Source of the DNA: Prorocentrum cordatum
Lineage: Eukaryota > Sar > Dinophyceae > Prorocentrales > Prorocentraceae
NCBI GenBank assembly: GCA_963575745.1
Contig: CAUYUJ010017838.1
Location: forward strand, 62,001 to 126,000
Length of the DNA stretch: 64,000 nt
Direction: 5' to 3'
The number at the start of each line of letters is the position of its first letter. Position 1 is the first letter of the stretch. The notes beneath the pieces are model-generated. The model made no database searches. It was not told the origin of the DNA and saw only the letters and a list, made by a program, of their open reading frames with translations. The position numbers were made by a program, and so were the translations under genes. Shown here piece after piece: positions 36,813-54,928 of this stretch.

Positions 36813-36817
36813 GTAAA
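36813..36817. repeat. target site duplication GTAAA (left)
   Basis: Directly abuts the left LTR and is repeated at 54,924-54,928 directly after the right LTR. Five bases is the normal Copia duplication length. Confidence 0.95.
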
Positions 36818-37012
36818 TGTGTATGGGGTTGAAGTTCAAGGGCACAGAACCCCTGATCCGTTGGTAGAGGGAAGGAGGGATAGATGGATGTCTTTCCCTC
36901 CTGCACGATCAAGGTCTGATCGATCTTCCCAATACCTGAGCCCAAACGGCCAGGCGCAGGAGAGGTGAGGATAAGGAGTATATATGAAGGTATTACACGA
37001 GTTCTATTCACA
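36818..37012 (-). repeat. 3' LTR (195 bp)
   Basis: Aligns end to end with 54,728-54,923. The minus-strand sequence begins TGTGAATAG and ends CATACACA. A tatatat run (36,979-36,985) might serve as a promoter element, but this is not established. Confidence 0.95.
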
Positions 37013-37417: not shown

Positions 37418-37485
37418 ATGTTATGAAGCGCATCTATATATATATATATATATATATCAAAACAAATGGCTGGCCAGACGAAAGG

Positions 37486-37503: not shown

Positions 37504-37716
37504 AAAGTTGCATGTATATAAACTCTCTATATGGCGACACCCGTTGGCGTTGCTCCTTAGGAGGCTGCCTTGGGTCTCGCAAAATATGTGTGTATGCGTG
37601 GCCACGTGCGTTGTCTAGTGAAGTGGCCTAGAAGTAGATCATAGCCACCGCTCAAGGCGAACTTGTATTATAATGAAGTTCAAGCCTATCGAGCGGTGGG
37701 CCTCGCGGCCGACTCA

Positions 37717-39684
37717 CTACGCGCTGCCGTTCTCGTAGAACCTGCTGCCCCACATCCTGTGGCCATCGCGCGTCACGTAGCTCGTCGTGAACGTCTCCCA
37801 CGATGTCCTTGGGATCCAGTGGCGAAACCACTTGTTGTACTGGATGTCGCGGATGTATACGAACTCGTCGTTGTTGAGCGCGATGTAGATCCAGCAATTG
37901 ATGTGGTAGCTCCAGCACCTGAGGCCCCAATGGCTGTCCTCTAAGTCGTCGCGCCACCATGCGGCGTAGTCTGTCGTACGCGCCCTCTTGGCGCGAGGTC
38001 TGTAGCTGTCATCGCTATCCTGCCGCTGCGCTGCAGTGCCGCGCGGCCCCGCGGGCGCGTGGTCATCCGCGCCAGAGGCGCTAGACCGTGCAGCATCGCC
38101 GGGGGCAGGGCGCGGCGGCGGCGGATGGCGCGGCTGGCGCGGCTCCATGGCATCATCAGAGTGTTGGGAGTGTGTATCATGGTCGATCGGATCGGTTCTC
38201 ATCCCTGAATCAACCCCCCTCTGGTCGGTGGAACCCAAGGCAGAACCCATCAACCCGTAAGCAAGCGCAGCAAGCTTGCGCTGCGTGACTTTCTCACGGG
38301 TGCCATCCCGCCTGGGGGGGGCAATCGTGGCAAATCCGCGTGCCTGCCGCGTCTGCCCGTCGAGTCTGCCTTCGTTTAACCACCATTTCTTCCGACCAGC
38401 TTGGCCAGTCCTGATGCTGGTCTCGAGGATTTCACATGCATCTCGCATGTCCTCAACGGTCCAGGCCTTCTTGCCCACGTTAACGCGAGCGCCTGTCATT
38501 TGGTGGTGGAACTTCAAATCATTGAGAAAACGCTGAACGAGATTGGCATATGGATGGTATAGAGGTCTGTCGTCTTCAGCCTCGCCCATCAGTCTGCACT
38601 CGCGTGCAGGAGGGCGGCCAGAGTCGACCCACTTCTGATACCTCTTCCTAGCGGAATTGGTCATTCTCCTCAACGCATCTTTCTCATTGCCTGGAAATGA
38701 GCGCTTGCCCGTCATGATGACTTGCGCTCCGTCTCTCATGTACCTCGTGATGTCGTCCTGGAAGAGCGTCATCTTGATCCAGTGGGTCAGCTTCTGGAGG
38801 TATGCTAGGTCGCTCTGGACGGCTGTACTTTTACCCGTAGCACCCACGGATACAGTGTACTGCCAGCAGATGTCACAAAGGTTACCATCATTTGTAACGG
38901 TCCCTAGGGATAAGATGCGACCGCAATTCCGACATCGCGCGATATCATGCTGAATATCTTCTGGGGCTCCGTCAATCGTGAGGTGCTCACGAGATCCCCA
39001 GCGAGTTTCCCGACCACGAGCAAGACTGCGGCCGATCTGATCCGTGGCATCGCGGTTGATCTCGGCGTTGCGTCGGGAAGCGATCGATCTGCTCATTCCC
39101 TCGATCTCGATCTTAGACAATCTGTCCCCTGGCAGTCCTATGCGCTCTGTCGTGTCGTTGCCCGCATCCTCAGCATCGCCATGACATGCGTTTTCTGTAC
39201 GGAGACGGCGAGCCTCCACCTGCAAGGCGGACTCGTTGTCGCCCTCCTCGCGGTTGACTCCCGTCTGTTCGGCTATGATCCGTACCATGGTTTCTTGATC
39301 AGGAGCTGCGGGTGCAATGCTGCCTGGGTCCTGGGGAATGTCCTGCTCCGCGCCTGGGCCACGTGGCGCGGCAGGTGTTTCCACCAGCTCCGTCCATACG
39401 GGGAAGCCTGGATTGCCGAATGTCTTGATGCAGTGCGTAAATAGATCACGCAACGTTTGGAGTGCGGGATGATTCTGATGAATAACATCTTTTGTGAAGT
39501 CACGGAGCTCCCCGATACTGTCCAGCAATATGTTTTCATACACTTTGGAAATCCATTGAAAGACGCCTGTAGTCGACTCCTCGATGGTCTCTGGGTCCAG
39601 GTAGTGCACCAACTTTTTGAAGAAGCGATCTGCACTGCAAATCGGTAAGTCACGTGCCCACTTGTGGGTATGCTTATAATCCAA
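37717..39684 (-). CDS. post-pol protein segment C, with Cys4 zinc ribbon; unknown function
   Basis: 655 residues from a non-ATG (TTG) start; it is in frame with the upstream 655-residue frame, separated only by a TGA at 39,715-39,717. It is therefore probably the C-terminal part of one longer protein (segment B plus C). Around residues 248-270 is Cys-Arg-Asn-Cys followed by Cys-Asp-Ile-Cys, a four-cysteine zinc ribbon. The region after it is helical and basic (Arg-Lys-Arg-Tyr-Gln-Lys-Trp), then a Pro/Ala-rich linker (about 510-560), then a compact Trp/Tyr-rich C-terminal domain. No family recognised. It sits last before the 3' untranslated region. Confidence 0.7.
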   Translation of the reverse strand: MDYKHTHKWARDLPICSADRFFKKLVHYLDPETIEESTTGVFQWISKVYENILLDSIGELRDFTKDVIHQNHPALQTLRDLFTHCIKTFGNPGFPVWTELVETPAAPRGPGAEQDIPQDPGSIAPAAPDQETMVRIIAEQTGVNREEGDNESALQVEARRLRTENACHGDAEDAGNDTTERIGLPGDRLSKIEIEGMSRSIASRRNAEINRDATDQIGRSLARGRETRWGSREHLTIDGAPEDIQHDIARCRNCGRILSLGTVTNDGNLCDICWQYTVSVGATGKSTAVQSDLAYLQKLTHWIKMTLFQDDITRYMRDGAQVIMTGKRSFPGNEKDALRRMTNSARKRYQKWVDSGRPPARECRLMGEAEDDRPLYHPYANLVQRFLNDLKFHHQMTGARVNVGKKAWTVEDMRDACEILETSIRTGQAGRKKWWLNEGRLDGQTRQARGFATIAPPRRDGTREKVTQRKLAALAYGLMGSALGSTDQRGVDSGMRTDPIDHDTHSQHSDDAMEPRQPRHPPPPRPAPGDAARSSASGADDHAPAGPRGTAAQRQDSDDSYRPRAKRARTTDYAAWWRDDLEDSHWGLRCWSYHINCWIYIALNNDEFVYIRDIQYNKWFRHWIPRTSWETFTTSYVTRDGHRMWGSRFYENGSA

Positions 39685-39714
39685 ATAGTATGTCTCTGCG
39701 TTCCATGCTTTGGA

Positions 39715-41682
39715 TCAGAATTGAATGTCGACTTGTAAGTACGACTGTACTTTATCCACCACAAATCTGTCCACGCCTGTGTGCACCTCAATGATTTGCT
39801 TCATCTTTATCATAGGTGAGTTTACCAGAAGCTCCGACACCCAGCGGTATATGCGGTGGTCGTATGATTGTCTGGTCCACCTTGTGTATTCCTCTGGGTC
39901 GTAGTCGGGGTGGTTGAGGAAGTCCTCTGGCGGGTCAATAATATTGTCGTGGATGATCGCGTCCACGTGCTCATCTGCTTGGATCTCTGCCAATAGATCT
40001 GCTTTCATATTGTCATTTGCCGCTTTTTCTTCGGCAGCGAGTGGTATGTTTGATATATCCACAATAACGGTAACCAGAGGTTCGGCAGATTGGCCTGCCT
40101 CTTGTTGGGGTCCATCGTCCGCGGGAGCAGTATCCTCGGCAGGTGTGGCCACCAGCTCTTCGGGATCGGGTGTCCGAGGAGCGGGCCGTCTGGTCGGTGT
40201 ACGTGGGATACGTGGCTTATAAATGCTCGGCATGCCGAGATATGGCAGATCACCATCTCTGTTGTGCTGAAGTATTTTGTCGCGGCATGAGGATGGGCCT
40301 TCCAGGGCAGTATTCATATGTGTCGGGTCAATGGCATATTTGTCGGCACGAATTGGTAAAGCAAAGATAACGCCCTTGAGAGGCATGCTTTTGTCATTGT
40401 ACCATATGTTTACCCATCGTAAACCGTAGTTGAGGATGGGTATTTGTACCGCAAAGAACTTGTCAAAGACTCCGAAATGAATGATTGGGCCGTATATGTG
40501 GCCCTTGTTCATGAGGACCTTGGTTTTGTGATTGCCCTTGGGGTAGTGATTGTCGTAATGATAACAATTGGTAGATCCCCAATTCTCGGTGACAATGAAG
40601 TCCCCCATGCGAACATCATTAAATGTAGGCAGACGATCCCAATCTTTCTGTGTAATCTTTGATGTAATGGGTCGAAGAGCCTCTCGGCAGTATGACATAG
40701 CAATTAACCAATCTTTGTCGTCTGTTTTGTGGTCGGCGTCGTCGATCATAGCACGGACTATTTGTCCATCCAAGGCGTCGGCGCCAGATATGCGGCCAGC
40801 AGGGGTTGCCCCCAGCTGAGGGGCAATCGGTCGCTGAGCCGAAGATGCTGACGCTGACGGCGTCCTTGGCTGCTGATCCATGTCGTGATCCATGTCGGCT
40901 GGTGTAATCCCAGGAGGGTTATCGATGAACTCCTCTCTGGGAAGATAGGCGCAAATTTCGTACTTACTCAATGGTTGTCTCGCGGCCAATGGCGGACAGT
41001 CCCAGGAGGAGCCCTCCGGCCATATCTGCTGGCCGAGCATGTGGCGTGGTTGGAGACGGCGAATTGCAATGACTGCCGCTGCTGGAGCCACGTCCTCTGT
41101 CATAATAGCGCCTTGAGCGCCAAACCAGAATCTGCAACCAGCTTTTGTGGCGATCTCCATGTTGATCACCAGCTCGACCTCGTTCTTGCAGTGATTGAAT
41201 TTGTATGACTCTACCGAGGTGTGGGGATTCTTCTGGACATTGTCTATATATGTGCTGGAACTGAAGAATGCCTCCGTGCGTTGCGATGGTTTATGATGCT
41301 TGTCTCTCTGAGAAGATGTATCGACGTAGCCTGGAATGATCCCTGTCTTGGGGATGTTGCGCCAAGCACGGAATGTCGTGCCATGGTGGAGGTATTTCAC
41401 GTCTGTCCATTGTAGGCTCTCCCAGCCCATGTTCCATGGTTTGGAAAGTGGGTTGACGCAACTGTGGCCTCCAACACATCGAATGGCAATAACGCTGTTC
41501 CAATCGAAACAGCTGGGATCACCTCCCTCGGGGATTGGTTTGGCGTATATATCGATCCGATTCTTCTGCGGGTCAATATGTTTCTGGAACGCACGAATGA
41601 TGAAGATCGGGAAATAATCGTTCCAATCGCTATACCCATCTTTCTCCCCATCTTTCTTGAAGTGCGTCATGGCCGCGTCCAT
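39715..41682 (-). CDS. post-pol protein segment B with Tpt1/KptA-like RNA 2'-phosphotransferase core
   Basis: 655 residues. Residues 64-200 carry signatures of the NAD-dependent Tpt1/KptA family: Ile-Arg-Cys-Val-Gly-Gly-His-Ser (67-74; family Ile-Arg-Ala-x-Gln-Gly-His-Ser), Leu-His-His-Gly-Thr (98-102; family Leu-Tyr-His-Gly-Thr), Gly-Ile-Ile-Pro-Gly (114-118), an Arg126/His129 pair where the family has Arg-x-His-Val-His, and Gly-Ala-Gln-Gly-Ala-Ile-Met-Thr near 185-192 (family Gly-Val-x-x-Thr). The missing N-terminal Leu-Arg-His motif is at the end of the preceding frame. Known family members remove the 2'-phosphate left by tRNA ligation using NAD. A Pro/Ala linker near residue 270 and a second unrecognised globular region follow. 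It overlaps the previous frame by 16 bases in the -1 frame. Confidence 0.7.
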   Translation of the reverse strand: MDAAMTHFKKDGEKDGYSDWNDYFPIFIIRAFQKHIDPQKNRIDIYAKPIPEGGDPSCFDWNSVIAIRCVGGHSCVNPLSKPWNMGWESLQWTDVKYLHHGTTFRAWRNIPKTGIIPGYVDTSSQRDKHHKPSQRTEAFFSSSTYIDNVQKNPHTSVESYKFNHCKNEVELVINMEIATKAGCRFWFGAQGAIMTEDVAPAAAVIAIRRLQPRHMLGQQIWPEGSSWDCPPLAARQPLSKYEICAYLPREEFIDNPPGITPADMDHDMDQQPRTPSASASSAQRPIAPQLGATPAGRISGADALDGQIVRAMIDDADHKTDDKDWLIAMSYCREALRPITSKITQKDWDRLPTFNDVRMGDFIVTENWGSTNCYHYDNHYPKGNHKTKVLMNKGHIYGPIIHFGVFDKFFAVQIPILNYGLRWVNIWYNDKSMPLKGVIFALPIRADKYAIDPTHMNTALEGPSSCRDKILQHNRDGDLPYLGMPSIYKPRIPRTPTRRPAPRTPDPEELVATPAEDTAPADDGPQQEAGQSAEPLVTVIVDISNIPLAAEEKAANDNMKADLLAEIQADEHVDAIIHDNIIDPPEDFLNHPDYDPEEYTRWTRQSYDHRIYRWVSELLVNSPMIKMKQIIEVHTGVDRFVVDKVQSYLQVDIQF

Positions 41683-44468
41683 GGATGGTCCGTTGTGGTT
41701 TTACGGTCACTGAATTTCCATCGGACCATATCCTGAAAGGATTTCCAATTACTTGGGATCTTCCACTCACGATCTGTTGTCTTCGGCCAAATGTTGATAC
41801 GTCTATCGTGAAATTGATTGATGTAGAACTTCATGTAGTGTATCTCGTGGCGTAACATCGTCGCGATGTCTTTGCTCATGTATTTGGGTTCTCCCAGCCA
41901 CTCATCAAGTAATTCAGGACCATAACGTACGTCGTCGTAATGTGGTAACGATATCCACTTCCATTCTGGAAAGCAACCAAACTGTGCAAGATCAGGAGCA
42001 TGAGCAATCACACAACCGTCATGTTGCAGTTGGTCGAGCCATTCGTCGTCTTGCAGGCAAGCGAATCCATTGACCGCGGATGTGCCCCGCAATACTGGAC
42101 AAACGTATGGATGGTCGTCCTTGATGCCTGCTTGCAGCTTCCACTCTCGAATAGTGCATGCGTTATCGAACATCCCGACCTGGCTGATGTCCTCGTACAT
42201 AGAACGCTCGCAGCTGCCCTGCCATGACAATAAGTTCATCTCGTGTGGAGAAGAGTCGTCATCGGCAGGAGTTGCCTCCAGCTCCATAGCGTCTAGGTCA
42301 GTGCCGTCGTCTGGGATCGGGACTGCCTCGGCTTTCGGGAGCTGAACTGCTGGCTGCTGGTCTGCTGGCGTACGGTGTAGGGGTGGGCCAAGAGTCGATG
42401 ACTTTGGCACGGCTATCGGTTGCGGGCCAGGTTGCAGTGGCTCAGGCAATGGGCCCGGTGGTGCTGGCTGGTCCGCATCGGCCGCCGCGCGCCACACGGA
42501 AGTCGGAACATCAGGATCGTATCCCAATGCCACGCGATCCAGTGCATTCTGTCTGAAGAATGTTTTGCGTGTCTCGATGGTCTGTTGGTTCTCGGCAGCA
42601 GGGCCGATACAGTGAGATTTCAACCTGTTGTTTTCTGCAATGAGTCGTGCTCTGGTCGCGTTATCGTCCCCATCCAAGTCGGTAGTCTGTTGTAGAAGCT
42701 GCTCAAACACAACCCAAGTAACTGCATGTGCATCTTCAACCGTTTTGGTGATCTTAGGGTGGAGGAGCTCGTGTTTCTCGACTGTTTCCCAGGATGCCCA
42801 TGCCCCAGGGTAGTCGTTGATCAACAGTAAGAGGTGCTTGAATAAGTCGTCGTATGCAAGACCAAATGGATCATTTTCAGGAATAGCCTTGTTCGGCTCG
42901 CGAGGATCAAGTGCTGGTGGCCGTATCGTAATTCCAGTGATAGGTACGCGTATGTCGCCTGCGGTAGCAGGCAGTGATGCCGGCAGCGTACCATCGGCAC
43001 ATGATGCCATCCACGCACAATGAGCCATCTCGCCTGCCGTCGGTGTCATCAGCGTCGTGAGGCTGAGATCTCTCTTCCATTCGTTTGTCATCCTCTCTCT
43101 GAAGTCGGGAGCCGCCATGATCTCCTTGGCCTGTGTGTAGGCCTGCTCGTCCGTGACGGGAGTCAGTATGGGAGGCCTGAGTGGATACGGCTGAGAAGGA
43201 AGTGACTGGATCAAAGCACAGAAGTTACGATAGCATGCTGCGTCGCAAAACTGTGTCGTGAACATCGCCATGTTGTGGTTGTTCTGTTTTGCATGCCAAG
43301 CCTGTGGGGTGATTCTATCATACGCTTCTATCCAGTGGTCTGATGGAAGAACTGTAATACCACGATTTTGCATAATCCTGATCAGATCGTCCGTGTGATA
43401 ATCAAAGTTCGGGTGCACGCCCCACTGTGCTGCTTTGCCAGGCCCCATCACCGTGGGACAACGGAAGTACTGCATCACATCGACAAAACGTGATACATCC
43501 ACTTGTACATGCATTGGCATGAGCGTCGGGACGCCGCCCTCACATTCCATTTTCTGGAGCTCACGCACGGCAGTAGGTGCGCGATCCTGATGGCGACGCA
43601 TGTCCACGGTGTTCTGTCCGTGGTTGGCACATGCGATGTCATTCGCGCTCCATACCACCATGGCGTTGAGGCCTCTGCAATAGTGTCTTTGTTTCACATA
43701 TGCAGGAAAATCATTGGCCCAGTAACCCCAGATGACCTCGTTTAGTTCACGCCACCTTTTGACGGAGGCATTGTCGCTGTGTAACATGAGGCCCCTGGCC
43801 TCGCGGATCATCTTGATCATGTTGCGCTGCTCGAGGGTGGACTCAAACTGGTTGTTGAGAATAGCTGCGGTACGGCTCTCCTGTGTCTGCGTACGCTGGT
43901 TACGCAGTTCTTCCATACCATAGCGGGTGTCTCCACCAGCCTCTGGCCATTGAATGCAATCTTGGCCGATCGGCGTGTCGTTCTGTTTGAACCATTCTTT
44001 ATAATTGCCAAACAAGAATGCCCACATCATGATGTCGTCGCGGATGATAGTCGACAAATGCTCGAGGGTAGCGCCACCCATGCATTCCGCGCGATTGAGG
44101 CACGGCATAAATAACGGTACAAGAGCAACATGTGATACTTTGGCGAGGTGTTCTCGCTTCTCTGCATTGTTGAGCTCGTCAATGCCGTGACTTGGGTACT
44201 TCTTGTGCTTTGCACCCTTGGCCCCTTTCTTGTGCTGCATAATGCATGTTGAATCGGTGTGCAAGTTGGCCCATTTGCATGCGTGCCCTGATGGACCAAA
44301 GGCATGATGCAAGAGAAGTCCCAGATCTTCGTGCACGAGTGAATACCACCCATTATCTGAAAGAAGAGTAGAAACCAAACGACCACCACAGAAAGCGCTG
44401 TACTTTGCTCGTTCAAGCTCGAGTGGGTCTATATCAGGACCAGGAGTAAGACCAGGGTTTATCTCCAA
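41667..44468 (-). CDS. post-pol protein segment A (933 aa), unknown; ends with the first motif of the Tpt1-like domain
   Basis: A long, non-repetitive frame with normal protein composition. Residues 1-620 are probably globular (many Trp, Cys and His; e.g. Asp-Asn-Gly-Trp-Tyr-Ser-Leu-Val-His-Glu-Asp-Leu-Gly near the start). About 680-770 is a Pro-rich linker. 775-933 is a second globular region ending in Ala-Thr-Met-Leu-Arg-His at 869-874, followed by Asn-Trp-Lys-Ser-Phe-Gln-Asp-Met. Leu-Arg-His plus a Gly/Asn-Trp segment is how Tpt1/KptA domains begin, so the domain continues into the next frame. The N-terminal residues come from a tandem repeat at 44.43-44.53 kb, so the true start lies upstream in another frame. 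No family recognised for the first 770 residues. Confidence 0.75.
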   Translation of the reverse strand: MEINPGLTPGPDIDPLELERAKYSAFCGGRLVSTLLSDNGWYSLVHEDLGLLLHHAFGPSGHACKWANLHTDSTCIMQHKKGAKGAKHKKYPSHGIDELNNAEKREHLAKVSHVALVPLFMPCLNRAECMGGATLEHLSTIIRDDIMMWAFLFGNYKEWFKQNDTPIGQDCIQWPEAGGDTRYGMEELRNQRTQTQESRTAAILNNQFESTLEQRNMIKMIREARGLMLHSDNASVKRWRELNEVIWGYWANDFPAYVKQRHYCRGLNAMVVWSANDIACANHGQNTVDMRRHQDRAPTAVRELQKMECEGGVPTLMPMHVQVDVSRFVDVMQYFRCPTVMGPGKAAQWGVHPNFDYHTDDLIRIMQNRGITVLPSDHWIEAYDRITPQAWHAKQNNHNMAMFTTQFCDAACYRNFCALIQSLPSQPYPLRPPILTPVTDEQAYTQAKEIMAAPDFRERMTNEWKRDLSLTTLMTPTAGEMAHCAWMASCADGTLPASLPATAGDIRVPITGITIRPPALDPREPNKAIPENDPFGLAYDDLFKHLLLLINDYPGAWASWETVEKHELLHPKITKTVEDAHAVTWVVFEQLLQQTTDLDGDDNATRARLIAENNRLKSHCIGPAAENQQTIETRKTFFRQNALDRVALGYDPDVPTSVWRAAADADQPAPPGPLPEPLQPGPQPIAVPKSSTLGPPLHRTPADQQPAVQLPKAEAVPIPDDGTDLDAMELEATPADDDSSPHEMNLLSWQGSCERSMYEDISQVGMFDNACTIREWKLQAGIKDDHPYVCPVLRGTSAVNGFACLQDDEWLDQLQHDGCVIAHAPDLAQFGCFPEWKWISLPHYDDVRYGPELLDEWLGEPKYMSKDIATMLRHEIHYMKFYINQFHDRRINIWPKTTDREWKIPSNWKSFQDMVRWKFSDRKTTTDHPWTRP

Positions 44469-44532
44469 GAGTAAGGCAGGACCAGGAGTAAGACCAGTAT
44501 ATCAGGACCAGGAGTAAGACCAGGAGTAAGAC
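44430..44532. repeat. tandem duplication of CAGGACCAGGAGTAAGACC inside the coding region
   Basis: Complete copies at about 44,435 and 44,504, with partial gagtaaggcaggaccagg copies between. It lies exactly where the 225-residue frame ends and the 933-residue frame begins in another frame, so the repeat expansion probably broke one continuous protein. Confidence 0.8.
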
Positions 44533-45111
44533 AGCGGGGGCCTCGCCAATGAAGACATTGCCCTCGTTGTATGGTTGCCAACGATAAGTACTTGTCATAG
44601 TCTCGTCGTGCTCTGATATTGCCTGCCAGCCTTCTGGGCGATCGGATGGTGTTGCCACCGTCTTGGCGTATGATCCGGTACCGCCGAAGCCTCCGCGTGC
44701 AGTCAACCATGTGCTGAACTTGCGGCGGAATTTGCTTGTCTGGTTAATGTCGGAAAATGCTCGCATTTCGGTGACCAAATTATCTTCAACAGCGTGGCCG
44801 ATGTGTCCCGAAGTATCTGATGTCCTGGCTAAGCCAGGTGGGCGTGTGGGTACCTTGATCGTTACACGCTCAAGTGTAGGAGCATAGCATGGAGTTGTCA
44901 ATCCATTGCTGTATACATCAGAGGGTGCACAAAGACCATTTCCATAGTAGTGTTTTGTATCCTGAACGCTGTCCTCGGCATATGGTCCCAGTACTGCACT
45001 GCCAATTTTGGACCAATCATTGCGAATCATCATCCACTCCGTCTTCAATATCATCGTCGTAAGCTCCATTGGCGGGCACTTGCGGTGCGCTCCTGGGATC
45101 ACTGCGTTCAA
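44434..45111 (-). CDS. post-pol protein N-terminal segment (225 aa), unknown
   Basis: A protein-like frame (for example Trp-Met-Met-Ile-Arg-Asn-Asp-Trp-Ser-Lys-Ile-Gly-Ser-Ala-Val, and Gly-Gly-Phe-Gly-Gly-Thr-Gly-Ser-Tyr-Ala-Lys) up to about residue 200. The last 30 residues are Leu/Val/Ser repeats encoded by the tandem duplication. Most likely the N-terminus of the same protein as segment A, disrupted by the duplication. Its own start could be the Met at 45,111 or further upstream. Confidence 0.6.
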   Translation of the reverse strand: MNAVIPGAHRKCPPMELTTMILKTEWMMIRNDWSKIGSAVLGPYAEDSVQDTKHYYGNGLCAPSDVYSNGLTTPCYAPTLERVTIKVPTRPPGLARTSDTSGHIGHAVEDNLVTEMRAFSDINQTSKFRRKFSTWLTARGGFGGTGSYAKTVATPSDRPEGWQAISEHDETMTSTYRWQPYNEGNVFIGEAPAVLLLVLLLVLIYWSYSWSCLTLGDKPWSYSWS

Positions 45112-45151
45112 ATGATCATGTAAACCACGAACACTGTCATGTACAGACGGG

Positions 45152-45832
45152 TTACGAGTGAAAAGGCTGGAAAATCATGCACATAGCCCTCATGAAAGAT
45201 AGCCATGGCGTAGCCGTAAACGTGCTGTACTCGTAGTTGGCGTCGCCGCCGACTGATCCACCAGTATCGCTGATCCAACTCTTGACGTCGGCGGACGCAG
45301 AGCGGGCAATTTCTCGAATAGTGGACTCGTCGGGTACGCGGAGAGCAAAATCTGCGCTGCGATCAGCGCGCCGTTGATGTACGTATATGTATCCATCATC
45401 AGGATCACGAGGACGACCAGTTTGAGCGTGGTGCGTGAAGCCCACGCGGTCGTCGTCCTTGGCGATCGGGTCGTACTCAGCGTCGCAGCCGATGGGCCAG
45501 CCGATGAGGTGGAGCGGCTGTGCCTGATCCATCTCGTGGATGGGGGAATCGGGATTAGAACCGATCTCACTTATTTTCGCCTCGCACACGGCGAACAGGA
45601 TGCCTGTAAGCTTTGTAGCTCGAGTCGTAAAACTGCTGCGGCATGAACATATAATGAGTGTCCTGGACCTCTCTGTATTCTGTAGAGGCGAGGGAGGATG
45701 GCGGGGATGTCTACCGTGCGGGGAACGTGCTCTTGACCGAGGTGTGCGCGAAACAATAGCTGCGGCAGGTACACCAATGTGGTACATACATGCGCATATG
45801 CCCTCGTGATTGGCTTGTCCAACGCACTGCAT
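45152..45832 (-). CDS. small post-pol frame, unknown
   Basis: 226 residues; from about residue 75 the sequence is protein-like: Val-Cys-Glu-Ala-Lys-Ile-Ser-Glu-Ile, His-Leu-Ile-Gly-Trp-Pro-Ile-Gly-Cys-Asp-Ala-Glu-Tyr and Ser-Trp-Ile-Ser-Asp-Thr-Gly-Gly. The first 70 residues look like a wrong frame. It sits between the end of RNase H (about 45,887) and the larger post-pol block and ends 40 bases before the next frame, with different phase. It could be a separate small protein or a frameshifted N-terminus of the next one. Confidence 0.45.
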   Translation of the reverse strand: MQCVGQANHEGICACMYHIGVPAAAIVSRTPRSRARSPHGRHPRHPPSPLQNTERSRTLIICSCRSSFTTRATKLTGILFAVCEAKISEIGSNPDSPIHEMDQAQPLHLIGWPIGCDAEYDPIAKDDDRVGFTHHAQTGRPRDPDDGYIYVHQRRADRSADFALRVPDESTIREIARSASADVKSWISDTGGSVGGDANYEYSTFTATPWLSFMRAMCMIFQPFHS

Positions 45833-45886
45833 TCCACATTCTGATCCTACCTCGCCCCATCTTTCTTTTTCTGTAAGTAATATGTT

Positions 45887-46717
45887 TCATACTTCCGGGC
45901 ATCCATCCAGTTTTGGAGGTTCTGCAACATGAGGTAAACCGACGGGCCCCCGAGGCCCTCGTAGTGGTTTCCATGGTTCCTTTGGAGGACACTGTGCCGG
46001 AGTAGCGGGAAAGATGAGCGAGTGTTCCAAGAGGTCCCTCCAGAGGTCTGCTTTCTTTGGCTCGAAATGTTTGGTCATCATATCTGCAATCTGCTCTTTT
46101 GTACCTACATATTTGAGCTCGATATGTTCGAGTTATCATGTCTCGCATATCCAACCCAGTTTGATACGATGAGTACGATGAAGATGACGAAGTGCTGGTG
46201 CACGTCCCTTTTGGACAATTTTGATCACGGCCTGGTTATCCTCGAGGACGATAAGACGCACTTTGGGAGAACTAATCTCCTGAGCTGGTTCTGGATCCAC
46301 GTGCAATACGGTACCCTCATGGGATATTGTACGCCTCTTTGGAGGCGTAGGTAACTCCGTATTTAGCGGTAGTTGCCTACGGCTAGGAGAAGATCCCCTT
46401 GTGGGGGGTGCCTTGCGAGGCGATGGCCTGCGCTTCTTTTTGGCGGCCAGCGTCGGACGCGTCGCCGTGTCGGCGCGTCCCTGGCAGCTCAGGCAAGTAT
46501 TCTTCTCTTTGCATGTGTTGGCAACTCCCACCACGGCTTCCCAGAATGAGAGTAATGGTAGCCCTTCCAGTCGTAGTGCTGAGTCAAGAGCAACGATCTC
46601 GGATTCTGTAGATAAATGCGACACAACCGTTTGTTTCTTACAAAGCGCTGACCGGGAAGAACGTATTGGGTCCAACAAGCGCGGCGAAGACGCCGGTAGT
46701 GGACTTGGATGATGCAA
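45887..46717 (-). CDS. Copia RNase H, C-terminal half (with two in-frame stops)
   Basis: Continues the RT/RNase H in the -1 frame. Ser-Ala-Leu occurs in both frames at the junction near 46,640. The sequence then reads Ser-Thr-Glu-Ser-Glu-Ile-Val-Ala-Leu-Asp (catalytic Glu region) and Glu-Asp-Asn-Gln-Ala-Val-Ile-Lys (catalytic Asp), then His-Arg-Thr-His-Arg-Ile-Lys-Leu-Gly-Trp. TGA and TAA codons stand in tandem at 46,133-46,138. The same frame resumes with His-Ile-Glu-Leu-Lys-Tyr-Val-Gly-Thr-Lys-Glu-Gln-Ile-Ala-Asp-Met-Met-Thr-Lys, the canonical Copia C-terminus, and ends at 45,887. A Lys/Arg/Pro-rich insertion near 46,350-46,480 is unusual. Confidence 0.8.
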
Positions 46718-48107
46718 TGCAATCGGCGAACGAGGCGTCAGTGAAGAGCATGATGGATAACTTGTCTGACGAATCGCCTATCCATCCGTGTAAACAATGT
46801 GTGCGCGTCGTTTTGATGTAGCATATCAACCGATGTAGACGTTTATCGCACGTGGTATTCCATTTGGTAATTTCTCTGGCTAACATACATACTGGATGTA
46901 GAAGATCGAAACGACAGCAACGTGCCAGGTAGAGAATCTTCATCAGTACACTCGCCGCGTCCTGGCCAAGGATGCCCTCGTCGGAGTAATCGGAATCGGT
47001 GAAGGAGGTGTCCTCGATGCCAGGGGTTTCGGCGTCAGGTAGGTCATCGTATGTGACTGGTATGGGATCTGTTGTAGTAGATGTCGTATCGACCGATCTT
47101 GCTGGGCTGGATGATCGCGGCCGCGCGTTGAGCACGCTAGTAGGTCTGGCGACCGACCCGGAGGATGCAGGCGATTTGGATCGCGAAGTCCTCGGCGAGT
47201 CGGATCGTTTCCGACGTGACCCCGGTCCCTGGGCGCGCTTGGAAGCGCATTCCAGGTACCGCTCAATGCACTGATCAGTAAAACCAAGCATATCATGTCG
47301 AATTCCACGAACTTGTTTGGCTGTATTGTAATCTTTCTCATTGTGTACGGGCAACATAGGTCGTATGGTAGACGTTCTTTTGTCGAAGATGTTCTGCGGT
47401 ACCTCGTATGCCTGTTGTCCACAGCCAAGATATTGTGAGTATGGAGTAGGTGGATCCAAGTCAATACCGCTTTTGCGGATATAATCCCATCCAGCTGGTA
47501 GATTGTGAGCTGGTCCGGCTAATTTGAAGTCGTCCACATATACTGAAAGTATCAGTCCCAGTTTGTTGTGTCTCCATACACATTCCCATCCTGGAATAGG
47601 CTCGAAACCAACGCTTTCTAAGCATGTGCGACACGTTCGTTCCCAAAAGACCCCTGCTAGAGGGTGTCCGTATAGTGCCAATCGTAATCGGCACGCTGGA
47701 TTCTTGTATTTTGACCAGGATGTCGGTTGTCGCCATTTAGGTATGGTAATCCAACTATCAACTGGATCGATTCGTCCGTCGCCATATAGTAATGCTTGCG
47801 TATAGACTCCAGGTGCATCACTTTGTTCGCCCGTATACTGTGGCAATAATGCAGTAGCATCGCAAAGTTTGGAAGCCTCAATGTGCGAAGCACTGGAAGC
47901 GGCGTCGGCGAATATGGCGGACAAACCAGTCTCATCTTTGCCTGTATTGCCCTGAACCACTACTCTGCCCTTGAATTTACGTAAATCAGGTGGAAGTTCT
48001 TCGTGTTTGACTGAAGATAGTTCCAAGATATTGAAGACATGAGCTTTCGTCCCAGTGCGAATAGCTTGTGACTCAATATCAGCTTTTTCTGCAACAGTCT
48101 TCAACAT
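46638..48107 (-). CDS. Copia reverse transcriptase and N-terminal RNase H
   Basis: 489 residues. Phe-Lys-Gly-Arg-Val-Val-Val-Gln-Gly-Asn near the start, Leu-Tyr-Gly-His-Pro-Leu-Ala-Gly-Val-Phe-Trp-Glu near 145-156, and Ser-Val-Tyr-Val-Asp-Asp-Phe near 187-193, the YVDD catalytic motif. After a Ser/Arg-rich linker, RNase H begins with Leu-Phe-Thr-Asp-Ala-Ser-Phe-Ala-Asp-Cys and Ser-Ser-Lys-Ser-Thr-Thr-Gly. It is in the same frame as the upstream Gag-integrase frame, separated by TAA (48,168-48,170) and TAG (48,126-48,128). The sequence between those stops still reads as conserved polyprotein (Ala-Leu-Arg-Arg-Glu-Tyr-Glu-Arg), so the stops are recent mutations or read-through sites. Confidence 0.9.
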   Translation of the reverse strand: MLKTVAEKADIESQAIRTGTKAHVFNILELSSVKHEELPPDLRKFKGRVVVQGNTGKDETGLSAIFADAASSASHIEASKLCDATALLPQYTGEQSDAPGVYTQALLYGDGRIDPVDSWITIPKWRQPTSWSKYKNPACRLRLALYGHPLAGVFWERTCRTCLESVGFEPIPGWECVWRHNKLGLILSVYVDDFKLAGPAHNLPAGWDYIRKSGIDLDPPTPYSQYLGCGQQAYEVPQNIFDKRTSTIRPMLPVHNEKDYNTAKQVRGIRHDMLGFTDQCIERYLECASKRAQGPGSRRKRSDSPRTSRSKSPASSGSVARPTSVLNARPRSSSPARSVDTTSTTTDPIPVTYDDLPDAETPGIEDTSFTDSDYSDEGILGQDAASVLMKILYLARCCRFDLLHPVCMLAREITKWNTTCDKRLHRLICYIKTTRTHCLHGWIGDSSDKLSIMLFTDASFADCIASSKSTTGVFAALVGPNTFFPVSAL

Positions 48108-48167: not shown

Positions 48168-51100
48168 TTATGCGGCAAACTCTTTCTTACTCAGGCTTCT
48201 GGTAACTAGGGCCGGGCGTGCCCATGAGGAATCGGGGATTTTGTCTCTGTGTGCCGATGTGTAGGTCGTCTCACGTGGCATAGTGGGTATTGCTACCGAC
48301 TGGGTGAACTGGCGTATGAGCGGGTTCATGGTCCCAAAGTCGGTTCCTTCACGATCCACAAGTACCAAAGCACGTTCTTCTCCAGCGTGCTGTTGTGGTG
48401 TGTGGCGGTAGTACAGTACCGTAGTAATGTCACGTGGCCCACCAGGTACTTTGGCATACAGTATTTCTTTGTTCGTCACGCCTTGGACGTTCTCGTCGCG
48501 GATGACTGCGCCGTTGTCAGTGTCGCATGTAATCCTTCGTTCCACAGTATTCCATGTGGGTCCGCCGGCTGCAGTTGCACGGAAATTGTTGACCTGTTTA
48601 ACCTGTCTTGTCCACACTCGAAGTGCAGCTCGGTCACGAATCTCACGAGCTCGTTTGACATCTTCGGCGTACTCGATTTCTTTCTTCTGTTGTCCACGAG
48701 ATAGTGTTTTCCAATGTTCGGGAAGAGTGTGATCAGGACGTGTAGTAGTCTGTATACGTGTCTCGCGGCCGCGGACCACCATTTTGCCATCTGGCGTTAT
48801 TTTTGGAAGCTCATAGAATCGAACCGTGCCGGTCCAGGGCTCGCTCAGCTCCCTGTGGTCGTTGGCGCTGACACCGTCCCAAACATCGCGAAAGTCACTC
48901 TCTCCATCAAAAGTAGAAGTCGTCTTGAAATCTCGTGTCACGTCGAGTTGATCAACAGGTACAAGTATGTTCATGACGTCGTCCGTCGGGATGAACAATT
49001 TCTTGCGTGGAGTACGAATATGTCTGATGACGCAATATCCGCGCTGTTCCCAGTAGTCGGGTTCTGGCGCTGGTGCATCAACGTCAGAGGCCGATGCGTG
49101 GATATCGGCGTTGTTATCTTCCGTTGTCATCATAGACGGGTCATCCCATTCTTTAAGATAGGAAAGTGGAGGATCGGGCATTGGTTTGTCGCCCAAGGGT
49201 CGAGAAGTAGATGCCTTGACCTCGTCGCGTGCCTCAGGGTTATGATGTCGTAGAGTACCTTCTTTCACCGGGTAGGTGAACTTGCCATCAGGGATGATGA
49301 TGTCTTTGACTCTGTGCACGTGACACAGTTCCCCATCAGGATTCTTGGCGTATGTAGCCGTGTCCAAGACAAGGTAGTCACCTGACCATCGTCCACCAGA
49401 GTGTAAATGGTAACCCATGAATAACCCTCCTCGAGTATTTTCTTTAAACTTCGCAGTCTCGTTGTTAATTTCTGGGTTGAGGCATTTCCAGAAGATCCGA
49501 GCACCGAATGGCACGCAGTGCCCGGGAAAGCTTTCACCAAAGCGTATTTCATGAGCTGTCTTATCTGCATGCTCCTCGTTGAGGGCAGCAACGCCCGTGG
49601 ATGTATGCCCAAAATTATGTCCGCAGCAAAAGGCTTGCATGGCCTCTTTCCACCATTCATGTCCCAGACCAGACATATGCAACGCAGCTCTCGCACCGAG
49701 AATGACAATTTGGACGATGCGCTCGATCAATCCATTCGTTTGTGGACGATGCGGCGCACTCGTGTCGCGTCTCCATCCCAGTTGGCGGCAAGCCTTCTGA
49801 AGCTCTCCAGAATTGTCTGTATAGATGTGCTTCACCTCATCGTTCGCGGCAATGAACTGTTGAAAGGATGCCTTTGTGGTAGCTGCGTCTTTGTGTAGTG
49901 CTGGGTAGGCCATGAAGATGCCGGTGTATCTATCCAGGACAACAAGTGCATACTTGTCGCCGTGCTTGTCCGCGGCATCGTCTTTGGCCAGGACGATATG
50001 GTCGGCAGTTAAAGCTTCGCCAAACTTCTTCGGGACAAAAGCTTCGTGGGCTTTATCCTCGTCGGTGGGGTCTGCCGGTGGATGTGGTTTGCGCTGTCGT
50101 CGACACGGAGCATTCTGCGCCATCGTGCGAGAACAAATCTCACAGTCAGGGTGTTTTGGACTGTGGGTCATGTAATGCATCGGGTCAATCGGTTTCTTCT
50201 GTCTGTTTGGAAGAACGCGATCATTGTCGTGGTGCAGTCGTGTGAGCGTCTCCGTCAGTATGTCGTTATCTGCTTGAGCTGTATCTGCTAGCCCCCCGCA
50301 TGTTGGAGGAGAACACTGCGTTTGAGACGTGGGCGAGTCGGTGGGTGTGTCCACGTTAGGCTCGTGTTTGTTTGTGTCGGGAAGTTCTTCGACCGTGTCG
50401 GTCCGTGCTCCTCCTCCCTCTCCGACATGCGGTCTCTTGGGGCAGGTCCCTATGTGGGCCCGTTGCTCATCTGCGGTTGTTGACTGCTCTGTCGTTTTGC
50501 AGCACCAACATATGTCGTTGCAGCGGGCGGACGAACGCTTACGCTGACGACGTCGGGGGGCTGACGAAGTGCATAGACGTGGTGGTGGTATCAGTGTCAG
50601 GTCGTCGAGTCGTAATTCTGGAACTCTATTGTTGACTGGAATCCTATACCATTGGCCCCCCGGATCCTGAAGCAAGTAGCCCAGCTCAGGATCCCAAAGC
50701 TGCCGAAAACCATCAACCTCAATCAATTTCCCAACTGGTAGTAATGATGGACAGTCTGGCAAGGCAAGGGCTGAACTGTGTAAGCCAACCTCGGGTAGCC
50801 GTATGTCGTAGTGCTCGTTGACGGTACGATCACCATTGGCAGTTTCCAGAATATGCTCTTCGCGAATAGATATGCGATCCGATTCGGTCTGCGTCAGTTC
50901 GTGTTTACCTTGAATGTGATGAGCAGAACCACTGTCGAGAACCCAAGATCGTGTCAATGCAGCAGTCGAACGTGGTGGGTCGACTTGCATCATCGTTGTC
51001 GTCGTCTGGGCTGTCTTTGATGACTGCTTGGTAGCGTCGTCATATTTTCGGATCGCAATTGGTGTGGCCACCGACTCCTTGTTGTGTCGGTAGTCGTATA

Positions 51101-54100
51101 GATCTTCGTACCATAGCTGTGCCTCTTTCTGACATTCTCGTAGAGCGTCTGCACTTTGATCCCACCATCGTTGTGGTAACGGGTCTGGTACGTTGACAAT
51201 GTCGCCCTCATTCGGCATCTCCTTCCATGTGTCCAATCTGGCCCTGCCAGATACAGTATGTAGGTAGTGTTCCACATTACGTGTGCCGAATCGTATCCGA
51301 CGGCGTGATTTGGTAGATGTCGTAGTAACCTTAGTGTTGGCCATGAGGGTCTTGTCACGAATGACGTAACTGCGGTCGGAACGGCGTGAACGTCGATAGT
51401 TGGCAGAAGAACGTGCTCTGGCGTGGGGAGAACCACGGGACGAACCACGGCTCGGGGAACGTCTGCCACGTCCTCTGTCACTACCATATGATCTATCACG
51501 GCCGCGTGGGCTGCCGCGTCCGCCTCCACGGTTGTCTCGTCCTCGGGAGGTAGACCTCGAAGATCTATCGTATCGACTTCTCGATTGACTGCGAGAGTCT
51601 AGAGACCTCCTGGATGTTGAACGAGGTCGGTCGCATTGGCGTCGGTTGTCACGTCCATGGCGTGAGTCGTTTGCGCAGCGGAACCCCCCGCGTTGTGAAG
51701 AACGTTGGCTTCCTGATCCGCGGGGCGGTGACCGGCCACGACTATCCTGACTGGAGGTCCGTTGTCGACTCGGGCTTCGCTCGGGAGTCTTCGCACCAGG
51801 TGTGAGATGTGCGTATATGCATTTGTCGCCCTTGGGGCACTTGTTCTGTGCGAAGTCTTTACATTGTGCAACGTGTGGGAAGTTGCACTTGTCGCCTCTA
51901 TTGCATGTGCTGCGCTTGGCGAAATCGAAGCAAAATGGTTTCGATGTTGGCTTCTTGTGATTCGCAGGGGTTGGCGCGCTGCGGCGGGAGTTGCCACCAG
52001 CGGTCGATGATCTGGAAGATCTCTTGTTCTTCCAATCCCTGGAATAGGTATGCAAAGCCTTGCATCGTGCACCATTGTGACAGTTGCCTTTCTTCCAGGC
52101 AGCGCACGCATTCACTTGAGAACGTGTCTGATGCTCGTGCCGTAACTTATTTTGATTATTCTCCAATTGTTTGAGCTCCAGTACGTCGAGGACGCGCTGT
52201 CGGAGCCAAGCATAGGTACGATTCGGGTCGCTGATCTTCATGCGCTGGTACTCGTACATGTCTTGTTTCATCCAGGCATGTCTCCGAATCTGTGTACGAA
52301 ACAGATATTCTAAGATCTTTGGGTCGGGTGCTTCTCGGCACTCCAATAATAAAGCGTCCCAGTCAGTGATGAAACGTTGCAAATCCTCATCTCTCATCCT
52401 CAATTCTTTAAGGCGCTCGAAGTCGTGCAGGTCATCATCAACCTCTGTCACTTTGTAGGACTGTAGGATGTGCCAATAGATCTGGCGTCCTTTGAGCATG
52501 AGTCCTGCTTTGTGCTCTCTGGTTTCGATGAGCCTGATTTGGTAGCGCAAGTCTGAGGATAAGATGTCGCTCAGAGCGGTAGCGAGTTTGCAATCGATGC
52601 TCTCAAAGTCTCCACTGTCTCGTAAGTCCTCGAAGGTACACTCGGGCTGTTCAGCCACGCATAGGAAGGCATATGCTTTGGATGGTCGCCCTGAGGCGGC
52701 CCCAAAGTTCTTCCGTACCTTTTGCTGCCACTCGAGCAGCTGCGTGATCTTAGGCAAGACAGGGACTCGGACGGTGTCTGACTCCTTGATAGGAGTTGTA
52801 GTATGGACCGAAACCGCAGACAGTGGTTGTGAGGGTATCGGTACACCGTCAGTAGTCGGTTCTGTGCGCACAGGAGACACATGGCGTGTCTGTGCAGAAG
52901 CTGCCGCGGAGGCTGCTCCTGGTGACGTACGTCGTTGTTGGCCTGCAGAAGCATGTGGTGCTTCAGCGGACGCTGCCGTCGGCCTGTGCAGGTCGGTTGC
53001 AGGTCGAAGGTGGAGACCGGTGTCGTTGGTGTGGTCGATCAGCTGATTCGTCCAGCTCGTCATGTCTTCGTGTATTTGGGCCACCTTTTGGCGTGTGTAC
53101 TCATCAGTATCCCGAGAGAGTTGTGAGTGCCGATCAAGTCGTTGCTCGTATGCTCGGAGACGGGCGCTCTGTGCCTCCAGCTCGCTTTCCAGACGCGCGA
53201 GGTGCCCCTCAACACGTACTTTCTCAGCATCTCTTTCACGAATAACCTGGGAGAGCTCCAACTGCGTGTGGTCCGCCGCCTTCTCAACCTCCTGCAACCT
53301 GTCAGTGAGGCGGGCGAGATCGTAAACCGTGGGAGGAGAATCCAGCTGATCAGTCTGGGCTCGTCCGACACGCAACTCTGCCAGGGCGTCCTGTACGCCA
53401 GGAAAACGCTGCTCGATGTCAGAGATCCGGTTAGCGAGTGGCTGCACGACAGCGTTGGTCGCATCAAGCCTTTGAGTGATGACTCTCTCAGTACGTTGCA
53501 ACATGTCGATCAGGTTCGACGAGTTGGTGTGCGCTTCGTTGCGAAGCGTCGCCGTAGTGTGGTCTATGTGGGATCGAAGATCATTGATCTGAGACTGAAC
53601 GTCGCCAAGGTCGGTGGCCTCGGCTGGTGGTGGTCGGTTGCGGAGCTGGTCGTGGATCTCATCGTGGAGGATCCTGACTGCTGAAACGCCTGTGTCGCGT
53701 ACGAGCACAAGCTGTTGCTCCATCTGCGCTAGGTAGTGGCGCAGATTCTCGACCATCGCCGTTCGTTCACCTGAGTATGACATCTCACGATCAACCTGGT
53801 ACTGCAGTTCACCTATGATGCGTCGATCCTCGGCAATCCTGGGATCGATGATCCCTAAGGCGCCGTCAAGATCGTGGCGCATGGCTGCAGTATCGGCGGC
53901 GTTCGTCTGAACGCTCTGCAGTAGTCCAGAGTATTGCCTGGACACGAAGGTTTCAACCTGGTCTCTGAGCTCAGCTATTTCACCTGCGGCGGACGTTGCC
54001 GCCAGCTGATCGTCTGAGATGGAGATGTGGGGAGCGTCAGCTTCACTCTGCCCCCTCTCGCGAGGAGTGCTTGGCCTCTGACAGGCAGTACGCGGGCTCG

Positions 54101-54185
54101 ACCTACTCTCGCCGCATGGGCCTGGGGCCCCACGACGGTTGCGCGCGGACGAGCTGCGACTAGGACCATGTGTGTGGTGTCTCAT
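48168..54185 (-). CDS. Copia Gag-protease-integrase polyprotein (2005 aa)
   Basis: Domains in order: a Ser/Arg-rich start; a long heptad-rich coiled coil (about 60-390); a Gag capsid-like helical region (about 470-680); three CCCH zinc fingers, not the usual CCHC knuckle (Cys-x7-Cys-x5-Cys-x3-His near 693, Cys-x8-Cys-x5-Cys-x3-His near 752, Cys-x7-Cys-x5-Cys-x3-His near 775); an Arg/Ser-rich RS-like segment (about 800-950); an aspartic protease with Trp-Val-Leu-Asp-Ser-Gly-Ser-Ala-His-His near 1084; a His/Cys integrase zinc motif (His-Pro-Asp-Cys-Glu-Ile-Cys near 1346); and an integrase core with Thr-Ala-Asp-His near 1394, Tyr-Thr-Asp-Asn-Ser-Gly near 1456 and Asn-Gly-Leu-Ile-Glu-Arg about 35 residues later (DD35E). 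It ends at a TAA inside the conserved link to RT. Confidence 0.95.
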   Translation of the reverse strand: MRHHTHGPSRSSSARNRRGAPGPCGESRSSPRTACQRPSTPRERGQSEADAPHISISDDQLAATSAAGEIAELRDQVETFVSRQYSGLLQSVQTNAADTAAMRHDLDGALGIIDPRIAEDRRIIGELQYQVDREMSYSGERTAMVENLRHYLAQMEQQLVLVRDTGVSAVRILHDEIHDQLRNRPPPAEATDLGDVQSQINDLRSHIDHTTATLRNEAHTNSSNLIDMLQRTERVITQRLDATNAVVQPLANRISDIEQRFPGVQDALAELRVGRAQTDQLDSPPTVYDLARLTDRLQEVEKAADHTQLELSQVIRERDAEKVRVEGHLARLESELEAQSARLRAYEQRLDRHSQLSRDTDEYTRQKVAQIHEDMTSWTNQLIDHTNDTGLHLRPATDLHRPTAASAEAPHASAGQQRRTSPGAASAAASAQTRHVSPVRTEPTTDGVPIPSQPLSAVSVHTTTPIKESDTVRVPVLPKITQLLEWQQKVRKNFGAASGRPSKAYAFLCVAEQPECTFEDLRDSGDFESIDCKLATALSDILSSDLRYQIRLIETREHKAGLMLKGRQIYWHILQSYKVTEVDDDLHDFERLKELRMRDEDLQRFITDWDALLLECREAPDPKILEYLFRTQIRRHAWMKQDMYEYQRMKISDPNRTYAWLRQRVLDVLELKQLENNQNKLRHEHQTRSQVNACAAWKKGNCHNGARCKALHTYSRDWKNKRSSRSSTAGGNSRRSAPTPANHKKPTSKPFCFDFAKRSTCNRGDKCNFPHVAQCKDFAQNKCPKGDKCIYAHLTPGAKTPERSPSRQRTSSQDSRGRSPPRGSGSQRSSQRGGFRCANDSRHGRDNRRQCDRPRSTSRRSLDSRSQSRSRYDRSSRSTSRGRDNRGGGRGSPRGRDRSYGSDRGRGRRSPSRGSSRGSPHARARSSANYRRSRRSDRSYVIRDKTLMANTKVTTTSTKSRRRIRFGTRNVEHYLHTVSGRARLDTWKEMPNEGDIVNVPDPLPQRWWDQSADALRECQKEAQLWYEDLYDYRHNKESVATPIAIRKYDDATKQSSKTAQTTTTMMQVDPPRSTAALTRSWVLDSGSAHHIQGKHELTQTESDRISIREEHILETANGDRTVNEHYDIRLPEVGLHSSALALPDCPSLLPVGKLIEVDGFRQLWDPELGYLLQDPGGQWYRIPVNNRVPELRLDDLTLIPPPRLCTSSAPRRRQRKRSSARCNDICWCCKTTEQSTTADEQRAHIGTCPKRPHVGEGGGARTDTVEELPDTNKHEPNVDTPTDSPTSQTQCSPPTCGGLADTAQADNDILTETLTRLHHDNDRVLPNRQKKPIDPMHYMTHSPKHPDCEICSRTMAQNAPCRRQRKPHPPADPTDEDKAHEAFVPKKFGEALTADHIVLAKDDAADKHGDKYALVVLDRYTGIFMAYPALHKDAATTKASFQQFIAANDEVKHIYTDNSGELQKACRQLGWRRDTSAPHRPQTNGLIERIVQIVILGARAALHMSGLGHEWWKEAMQAFCCGHNFGHTSTGVAALNEEHADKTAHEIRFGESFPGHCVPFGARIFWKCLNPEINNETAKFKENTRGGLFMGYHLHSGGRWSGDYLVLDTATYAKNPDGELCHVHRVKDIIIPDGKFTYPVKEGTLRHHNPEARDEVKASTSRPLGDKPMPDPPLSYLKEWDDPSMMTTEDNNADIHASASDVDAPAPEPDYWEQRGYCVIRHIRTPRKKLFIPTDDVMNILVPVDQLDVTRDFKTTSTFDGESDFRDVWDGVSANDHRELSEPWTGTVRFYELPKITPDGKMVVRGRETRIQTTTRPDHTLPEHWKTLSRGQQKKEIEYAEDVKRAREIRDRAALRVWTRQVKQVNNFRATAAGGPTWNTVERRITCDTDNGAVIRDENVQGVTNKEILYAKVPGGPRDITTVLYYRHTPQQHAGEERALVLVDREGTDFGTMNPLIRQFTQSVAIPTMPRETTYTSAHRDKIPDSSWARPALVTRSLSKKEFAA

Positions 54186-54715
54186 CCGATGATACCTTGG
54201 GGTACTGCGTCTGCGGCTGTGCCGTCACTGGTCTACTGAGTTCCTCGAAGGTGGCTACGTGCTCCGCAACAGGAACGGTCGCAGGGCTGGGGGTTCCAGC
54301 ACCTGAGGTCCATCGGCGGTTAGCGCGAAAGCGCCCTGGAGTATCAGGACCAGTGAGGCTTTCGCCTGACGCAGTTGGGATTGCTCCCGACTGAGGAGGA
54401 GATGGAGGATCGAAGGTAGGCGTGTGAAACTCCTTCCTACCTGTTCCTACTCCTTCTCCTGTCCCCCCGCGGGCGGCGCTGCGGTGAAGTTCAGCAGCTA
54501 GCCGCGCCTCGGGTCCGTCGGAGCTGGGGGGGGGGTACCTGGGACACCAACACAGTCCGCACTAAGGCTCTCCAACTCATCACCGAGCCGTCGCGCCGTC
54601 GGAGAGCTCGGACGCGAGGCCCCGATGGACCCCTTACGGCGCATGCGCCGCTTGGGTTCCATCGAGGCCGCGTGCGAGATCGCGACGCGGGGTTCGATGA
54701 ACAGTGAGCTTTAAA
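54186..54715 (-). other. 5' leader of the LTR element
   Basis: About 530 bases between the primer site and the Gag start codon; no conserved frame. The antisense side contains a C/G run (54,527-54,535). Confidence 0.5.
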
Positions 54716-54727: not shown

Positions 54728-54923
54728 TGTGTATGGGGTTGAAGTACAAGGGTACAGAACCCCTGATCCGTTGGTAGAGGGAAGGAGGGATAGATGGATG
54801 TCTTTCCCTCCTGCACGATCAAAAGTCTGATCGATCTTCCCAATACCTGAGCCCAAACGGCCAGGCGCAGGAGAGGTGAGGATAAGGAGTATATATGAGG
54901 GTATTACACGGGTTCTATTCACA
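54728..54923 (-). repeat. 5' LTR (196 bp)
   Basis: Partner of 36,818-37,012. Differences: T/A and C/T near the outer-left end, an AAGG/AAAAG change that includes the one-base indel, and two A/G changes near the other end. Confidence 0.95.
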
Positions 54924-54928
54924 GTAAA
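54924..54928. repeat. target site duplication GTAAA (right)
   Basis: Identical to 36,813-36,817. Confidence 0.95.

Follow-up and report, generated by a model that had tools for sequence, protein, structure and literature searches.

Enzymes of the Tpt1/KptA/TRPT1 family (Pfam PF01885) use NAD+ to remove 2′-phosphates from RNA and can also ADP-ribosylate 5′-phosphate RNA ends; a tetrad of residues (Arg-His-Arg-Arg) is essential in the known enzymes (PMC6333775, PMC6582358). Members of the family have been described from viruses. KptA is found within the polyproteins of Beihai picorna-like virus and Botrylloides leachii nidovirus, and it also occurs in sawfly NPV, Bodo saltans virus and jumbo phages (PMC9503650). 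Enzyme cargo has likewise been described from retroelements: DNA methyltransferases (DNMTs) are carried by retrotransposons in dinoflagellates and charophytes, where they were captured more than once and are kept in many copies. In Symbiodinium the DNMTs lie in LINE and DIRS families, and Copia elements are said in the same account to lack them (PMC5890265).

The sequence analysed here (the window) is a 64,000-nucleotide stretch of Prorocentrum cordatum DNA. It contains an LTR retrotransposon that almost certainly carries a domain of the Tpt1 family. The arrangement resembles that in the virus polyproteins (PMC9503650) in that a KptA-like domain sits within the polyprotein of a replicator based on RNA, but those carriers are RNA or DNA viruses and here the carrier is a retrotransposon. 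It resembles the DNMT-carrying retrotransposons (PMC5890265) in the retention of an enzyme domain in many copies and, as seems likely, in more than one capture, whereas here the cargo is an ADP-ribosyltransferase (ART) of RNA-repair type and the carriers are Copia-type LTR elements. The words ‘retrotransposon’ and ‘retroelement’ are absent from the main text of PMC9503650, and among the literature matches listed none describes an RNA 2′-phosphotransferase in a retrotransposon.

Layout of the LTR element

The window element is of Ty1/Copia type, lies on the minus strand and is complete but decayed, with a full span of 36818-54923 (18,106 bp; Table 1). Its 5′ and 3′ LTRs (196 and 195 bp) have TG..CA ends and agree at 190 of the 196 positions aligned. 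Both are bordered by TTTAC, a 5-bp target-site duplication that was read by eye from the flanks, and a purine-rich tract, GGGACGGGGGG, precedes the 3′ LTR. The LTR pair, the target-site duplication and the order gag - protease - integrase - RVT_2 reverse transcriptase (RT) are those of Ty1/Copia elements, with the integrase and RVT_2 matches lying below their Pfam cut-offs. The 2018-codon ORF contains three CCCH zinc fingers at aa 707-806 (PF18345, E 4.8e-7, above the cut-off; also PF00642), a protease-like DSG motif near aa 1097 (motif scan) and an integrase core at aa 1419-1494 (PF00665, E 5.1e-6, below the cut-off). The RT ORF matches PF07727 with E 7.2e-6 and 26.2 bits, below the cut-off of 31.6. 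The remains downstream of it in the element, which we take from a Copia-type motif to be those of a broken RNase H region, gave no Pfam match.

Following the RNase H remains in element order, ORFs of 944, 661 and 665 codons occupy 37720-44501. The 944-codon ORF matched no Pfam family. The 661- and 665-codon ORFs share one frame and are separated by a single TGA; the latter has no significant Pfam family (best match E 0.12). These extra ORFs, with the Tpt1-like domain among them, set the element apart from Ty1/Copia elements, as do its length of 18.1 kb and its CCCH fingers in a gag ORF in which a motif scan found no CCHC knuckle. Outside the element, a tandem array of an 8-base unit with 55 registered copies lies at about 32798-33500 of the window.

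Table 1. Features of the window element (window coordinates) and the family B regions scanned for a RING finger (coordinates within L010, L012, L014 and L016).
Feature	Position	Strand	Basis or remark
Target-site duplication, 3′ side	36813..36817	-	TTTAC in element orientation; by eye
3′ LTR	36818..37012	-	Begins TGTGAATAG, ends CATACACA; aligned with other LTR
665-codon ORF	37720..39714	-	3′ of Tpt1 module
661-codon ORF	39718..41700	-	First ~203 codons (41092-41700) form larger part of Tpt1-like domain
Tpt1/KptA-like domain, whole	41092..41879	-	N-terminal (LRH) piece separated by frame break
944-codon ORF	41670..44501	-	Between pol and Tpt1 domain; LRH within last ~70 codons
Broken RNase H region, presumed remains	45890..46777	-	Copia-type motif
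Copia-type reverse transcriptase ORF (RVT_2), 495 codons	46641..48125	-	Pfam PF07727
2018-codon gag-protease-integrase ORF	48171..54224	-	Pfam and motif scans
5′ LTR	54728..54923	-	Aligned with 3′ LTR
Target-site duplication, 5′ side	54924..54928	-	By eye
Family B copies scanned for RING	L010:1-2694, L012:3-2663, L014:2-2665, L016:3331-6000		

The Tpt1/KptA-like domain and its copies in the genome

A preliminary description of the window, made from the letters and their translations, had listed a series of Tpt1/KptA motifs, all of which are present on the minus strand in the place and order that it gave. Leu-Arg-His (LRH) lies at about 41847-41855, Ile-Arg-Cys-Val-Gly-Gly-His-Ser around 41480, His-His-Gly-Thr around 41385 and Gly-Ala-Gln-Gly-Ala-Ile-Met-Thr at about 41098-41121. 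Because LRH belongs to the 944-codon ORF, close to its end, and the other motifs to the 661-codon ORF, the window copy of the domain is split by a frame break and falls across two overlapping ORFs, as was implied by the joined reading proposed at that time. While the motif list stands, its Arg-x-x-His (QRDKHH) is probably not the source of the fourth catalytic residue; two alignments, the sole basis for this assignment, favour the Arg of QRTEAFF at about 41278-41280.

The 661-codon ORF matches PF01885 with E 2.7e-4 (21.5 bits, below the Pfam cut-off of 26), and this is the only Pfam-A family that it matches at E up to 1. When a profile built from the genome's other Tpt1 domains was run against all ORFs of the window at least 60 aa long (628 in number), the 661-codon ORF was the only hit above the inclusion line (E 0.002). 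Both tetrad residues that fall within the window piece, R134 and R201, are kept.

The genome (4.13 Gb, 21875 contigs) was searched with the 267-aa domain piece; this gave 1499 candidates, and the best 144, all of which were scored, match without exception. Apart from the window itself these are 85-93% identical, and 125 are stop-free over the query (19 have stops). Two of the copies (L068 and L070) cover window positions 41085-41879 at 95% identity (blastn). Ten copies of this family (family A) were read, selected to cover a range of identities and, in most cases, because their open frames are long; in nine a single frame runs uninterrupted across the whole domain, beginning ahead of LRH, and the tenth has one stop. 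The comparison with the PF01885 HMM, suggested earlier for the joined window reading, was made on the naturally intact copies instead, and it supports the identification: all nine match (E 1.7e-7 to 8.7e-5), seven above the curated cut-off and two below it. One of them aligns over profile positions 7-176 of 177, and the next-best Pfam family in any of the nine has E 0.041.

The Arg-His-Arg-Arg tetrad (R10, H11, R134 and R201 in copy numbering) is present in 10/10 family A copies read and aligns with that of the other Tpt1 sequences. Family A shares with Tpt1/KptA/TRPT1 this conserved tetrad and the motif order LRH - K-x-R - IR..GHS - HGT - R. It differs from them in being retrotransposon-encoded, in a long insert after LRH (by alignment) and in two motifs that are common in canonical members but lie outside the tetrad: Glu-x-Phe stands in place of the His-x-His that follows the fourth Arg, and Gln-Gly-Ala in place of the Asn-Gly-Val (NGV) near the end. 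Its identity to nine further Tpt1 sequences of this genome in the alignment is 18-25%. It is on the Pfam match, the motif order and the tetrad that we base its assignment to the Tpt1 family, a family with a two-lobe fold (a winged-helix lobe for RNA and an ART lobe for NAD).

The RT of the window element was used in a second search (21401 candidates, best 86 scored). A contig is shared with a listed domain copy by 42 of these 86 RT copies, the window's included, and in 42/42 the domain lies downstream of RT on the same strand. The distance between the two is 4718-4941 bp (4.7-4.95 kb) in 40 of the 42, the other two having 3919 and 6781 bp. For the remaining 44 RT copies there is no domain copy among the best 144 of 1499, which has no bearing either way. 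At the RT place predicted from the domain in three copies, 450 bases were read and RT sequence was present in all three (93-95% identity). The starts of RT and domain share a frame in just 15 of the 42 linked copies, so that most of the listed copies have a break or shift in the reading between the two; in two (contigs C9957 and C16132) RT and Tpt1 lie in a single frame, with reported open lengths of 4721 and 3577 aa that N bases could have increased. With LTRs and a target-site duplication enclosing both RT and the domain in the window, and the same downstream position in every linked copy, the earlier claim that an LTR retrotransposon carries the domain holds.

Purifying selection in other copies, which the preliminary description had proposed as a check, was found. 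The median dN/dS is 0.164 over 55 pairs (ten copies and the window piece; Nei-Gojobori), with a range of 0.056-0.719 and a median dS of 0.30. In simulated neutral decay of 265 codons, 47%, 17%, 3% and 0.7% of sequences remained stop-free at 0.02, 0.05, 0.10 and 0.15 substitutions per site. The copies come from top-scoring lists and were mostly chosen for long frames, and both biases raise the share of intact copies and depress dN/dS; the figures therefore show retention of the domain in the lineages that spread, and do not mean that each copy is alive. Within that scope the domain has very probably been kept by selection. In copies taken throughout from top-scoring lists, it has a fixed place in the element, is present in many copies and is under purifying selection, and we have good confidence in the joint reading that it is both a Tpt1-family domain and selected cargo of the element.

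A Pfam search of the genome also identified a second Copia-like family (family B) with a Tpt1 domain (2877 first candidates, of which the best 150 were scored and 150/150 were above the cut-off). The first seven of the 150 rows are other Tpt1 loci; 31 of the remaining 143 were sampled. All 31 align as one family, one of them with a stop. The Arg, His and Arg of the tetrad are kept in 31/31 and the fourth Arg in 30/31, and of the His-x-His the first His is present in 28/31 and the second in 31/31. The domain matches the solved structure of tRNA 2′-phosphotransferase 1 (PDB: 7yw3, E 3.2e-13), and its median dN/dS is 0.176 (465 pairs less those with saturated dS). The four B copies with both flanks read each have an LTR pair (97-99% identical), and target-site duplications were seen by eye in two copies. 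ORF1 of family B (about 2940 aa) has the Tpt1 domain in 4/4 LTR-bounded copies (E about 1e-23), followed by a RING finger in 4/4 copies scanned (E 1.2e-8); a zinc knuckle was found in 2/4, at or under the cut-off. ORF2 has RVT_2 in the three copies whose 3′ part was scanned. Family B places a canonical Tpt1 domain and a RING finger upstream of pol. The RING finger is a possible ubiquitin ligase domain.

The coding regions of families A and B are alike over only one 73-aa stretch (33-34%), and their Tpt1 domains sit on different sides of RT, which makes two captures of Tpt1 seem likely. The tree joins A and B with support 39/31 and does not decide between one capture and two.

Candidate roles of the domain

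A retrotransposon copies its RNA from a tRNA primer, and internal 2′-phosphates would be expected to hinder reverse transcription. The simplest reading of the locus is that the domain would act beside the polymerase and clean or mask RNA ends and junctions. It would be made within, or beside, the pol polyprotein and, using NAD+, would act on RNA inside the particle or close to it. There, resealing of the element RNA or the tRNA primer after splicing, or after cleavage by a metal-independent nuclease, may leave 2′-phosphates; the domain would remove them, and reverse transcription would thereby not be stalled. We predict that the domain is catalytically active in intact copies, which we regard as likely. 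A possible account of both families, which we put forward with reserve, has two or more captures of Tpt1 by the Copia-type elements of this lineage; carried in the particle, the NAD-dependent enzyme would repair or cap RNA, keeping the element RNA or its tRNA primer readable for RT.

An active ART could instead have the job of capping 5′-phosphate RNA ends with ADP-ribose, as a protection against decay or host sensors. Human TRPT1 and a Streptomyces KptA ADP-ribosylate 5′-phosphorylated RNA, which the adduct shields from phosphatase, and in TRPT1 the reaction needs every tetrad residue (PMC6582358). The tetrad is conserved here, and the altered His-x-His of family A could mean an altered reaction. 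The role known for the family in yeast, however, is 2′-phosphate removal, and as the same tetrad is needed for both reactions its conservation cannot separate clean-up from capping. For this reason 2′-phosphate clean-up as the specific role is offered tentatively; capping as the job of the domain we consider rather unlikely.

It is also conceivable that catalysis has been lost and that the domain now binds RNA or has a structural function in the particle. The replacement of the canonical His-x-His and Asn-Gly-Val in family A would fit such a loss, as would its very long branch in the tree (3.16 changes per column), but the full tetrad in each of the ten family A copies read, and its near-complete retention among the sampled family B copies, make loss of catalysis unlikely.

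A third possibility is counter-defence, in which the domain would undo host RNA cleavage or modification aimed at retrotransposons, or would ADP-ribosylate a host factor. RING fingers are among the domains often employed on host proteins, and family B bears one beside its Tpt1 domain. A response to host RNases has been discussed for KptA in viral polyproteins (PMC9503650). Counter-defence overlaps with the preferred explanation, and as a separate role we think it doubtful.

That a diverged Tpt1/KptA copy looks selectively maintained in the copies examined hints that some retrotransposons may mend or shield RNA for purposes of their own. The account with two or more captures and a particle-borne enzyme, if true, would amount to an RNA-repair system encoded by retroelements and would imply a host defence that cuts RNA against retrotransposons. 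If the domain is active, a role of Tpt1 outside tRNA splicing becomes testable, as does the question of whether retrotransposons must mend or mask RNA ends in the cell. The high copy number and the two unlike architectures in one genome are natural replicates for such a test.

Two further readings, which concern the identity of the domain and not its role, fare far worse. A chance resemblance of motifs in an ORF unrelated to Tpt1 would be in keeping with the weak scores of the window piece, with the finding of no PDB match by sequence for the family A domain, with a weak profile-profile score (family A against the genome's other Tpt1 domains, E 0.0014 and probability 17%; window piece alone, E 0.034 and probability 1.5%) and with two AlphaFold2 models of very low confidence (pLDDT 32 and 33). 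Against these stand the hit of the own-genome profile, the PF01885 matches of all nine intact copies, with the next family at E 0.041, and the agreement of motifs, order and tetrad in the alignment, and we reject chance as very improbable. An accidental insertion of a Tpt1 stretch into one element, as a passenger or nested host gene, is what the window copy alone could not exclude, and it is rejected as more improbable still in the light of the 144/144 matching copies (best 144 of 1499), the RT found at its predicted place, the near-constant RT distance, the single frame shared with RT in two copies and the low dN/dS.

Relatives in other collections

In bacterial and archaeal contigs (genome_contigs) 12 stretches fit a search pattern and none was confirmed as a relative. 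Against a protein collection, the 661-aa ORF gave 4558 candidates, none at E 0.01. For the B element no relative of ORF1 size was found (196 candidates, none at E 1e-5). A viral scan found 11 stretches that fit a pattern, and three IMG/VR contigs (L081, L082 and L083; 185-257 kb) encode a KptA relative that is 27% identical in the best segment; in L081, the one read, it is an ordinary KptA-like ORF. EukProt contains three B-type fragments (P0001-P0003), labelled Pyramimonas sp. AAC, a name absent from the NCBI taxonomy, that are 69-74% identical to the B domain and fall inside the B radiation. B-like elements thus occur in, or contaminate, the data set of another alga; contamination by a further alga is possible.

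A third kind of Tpt1-like ORF was also observed (L057, L058 and L059, on contigs C13309, C15736 and C16367). It is 316 aa long in two copies and degraded in the third, and lies within a repeat of several kb that is 93-97% identical among the three contigs.
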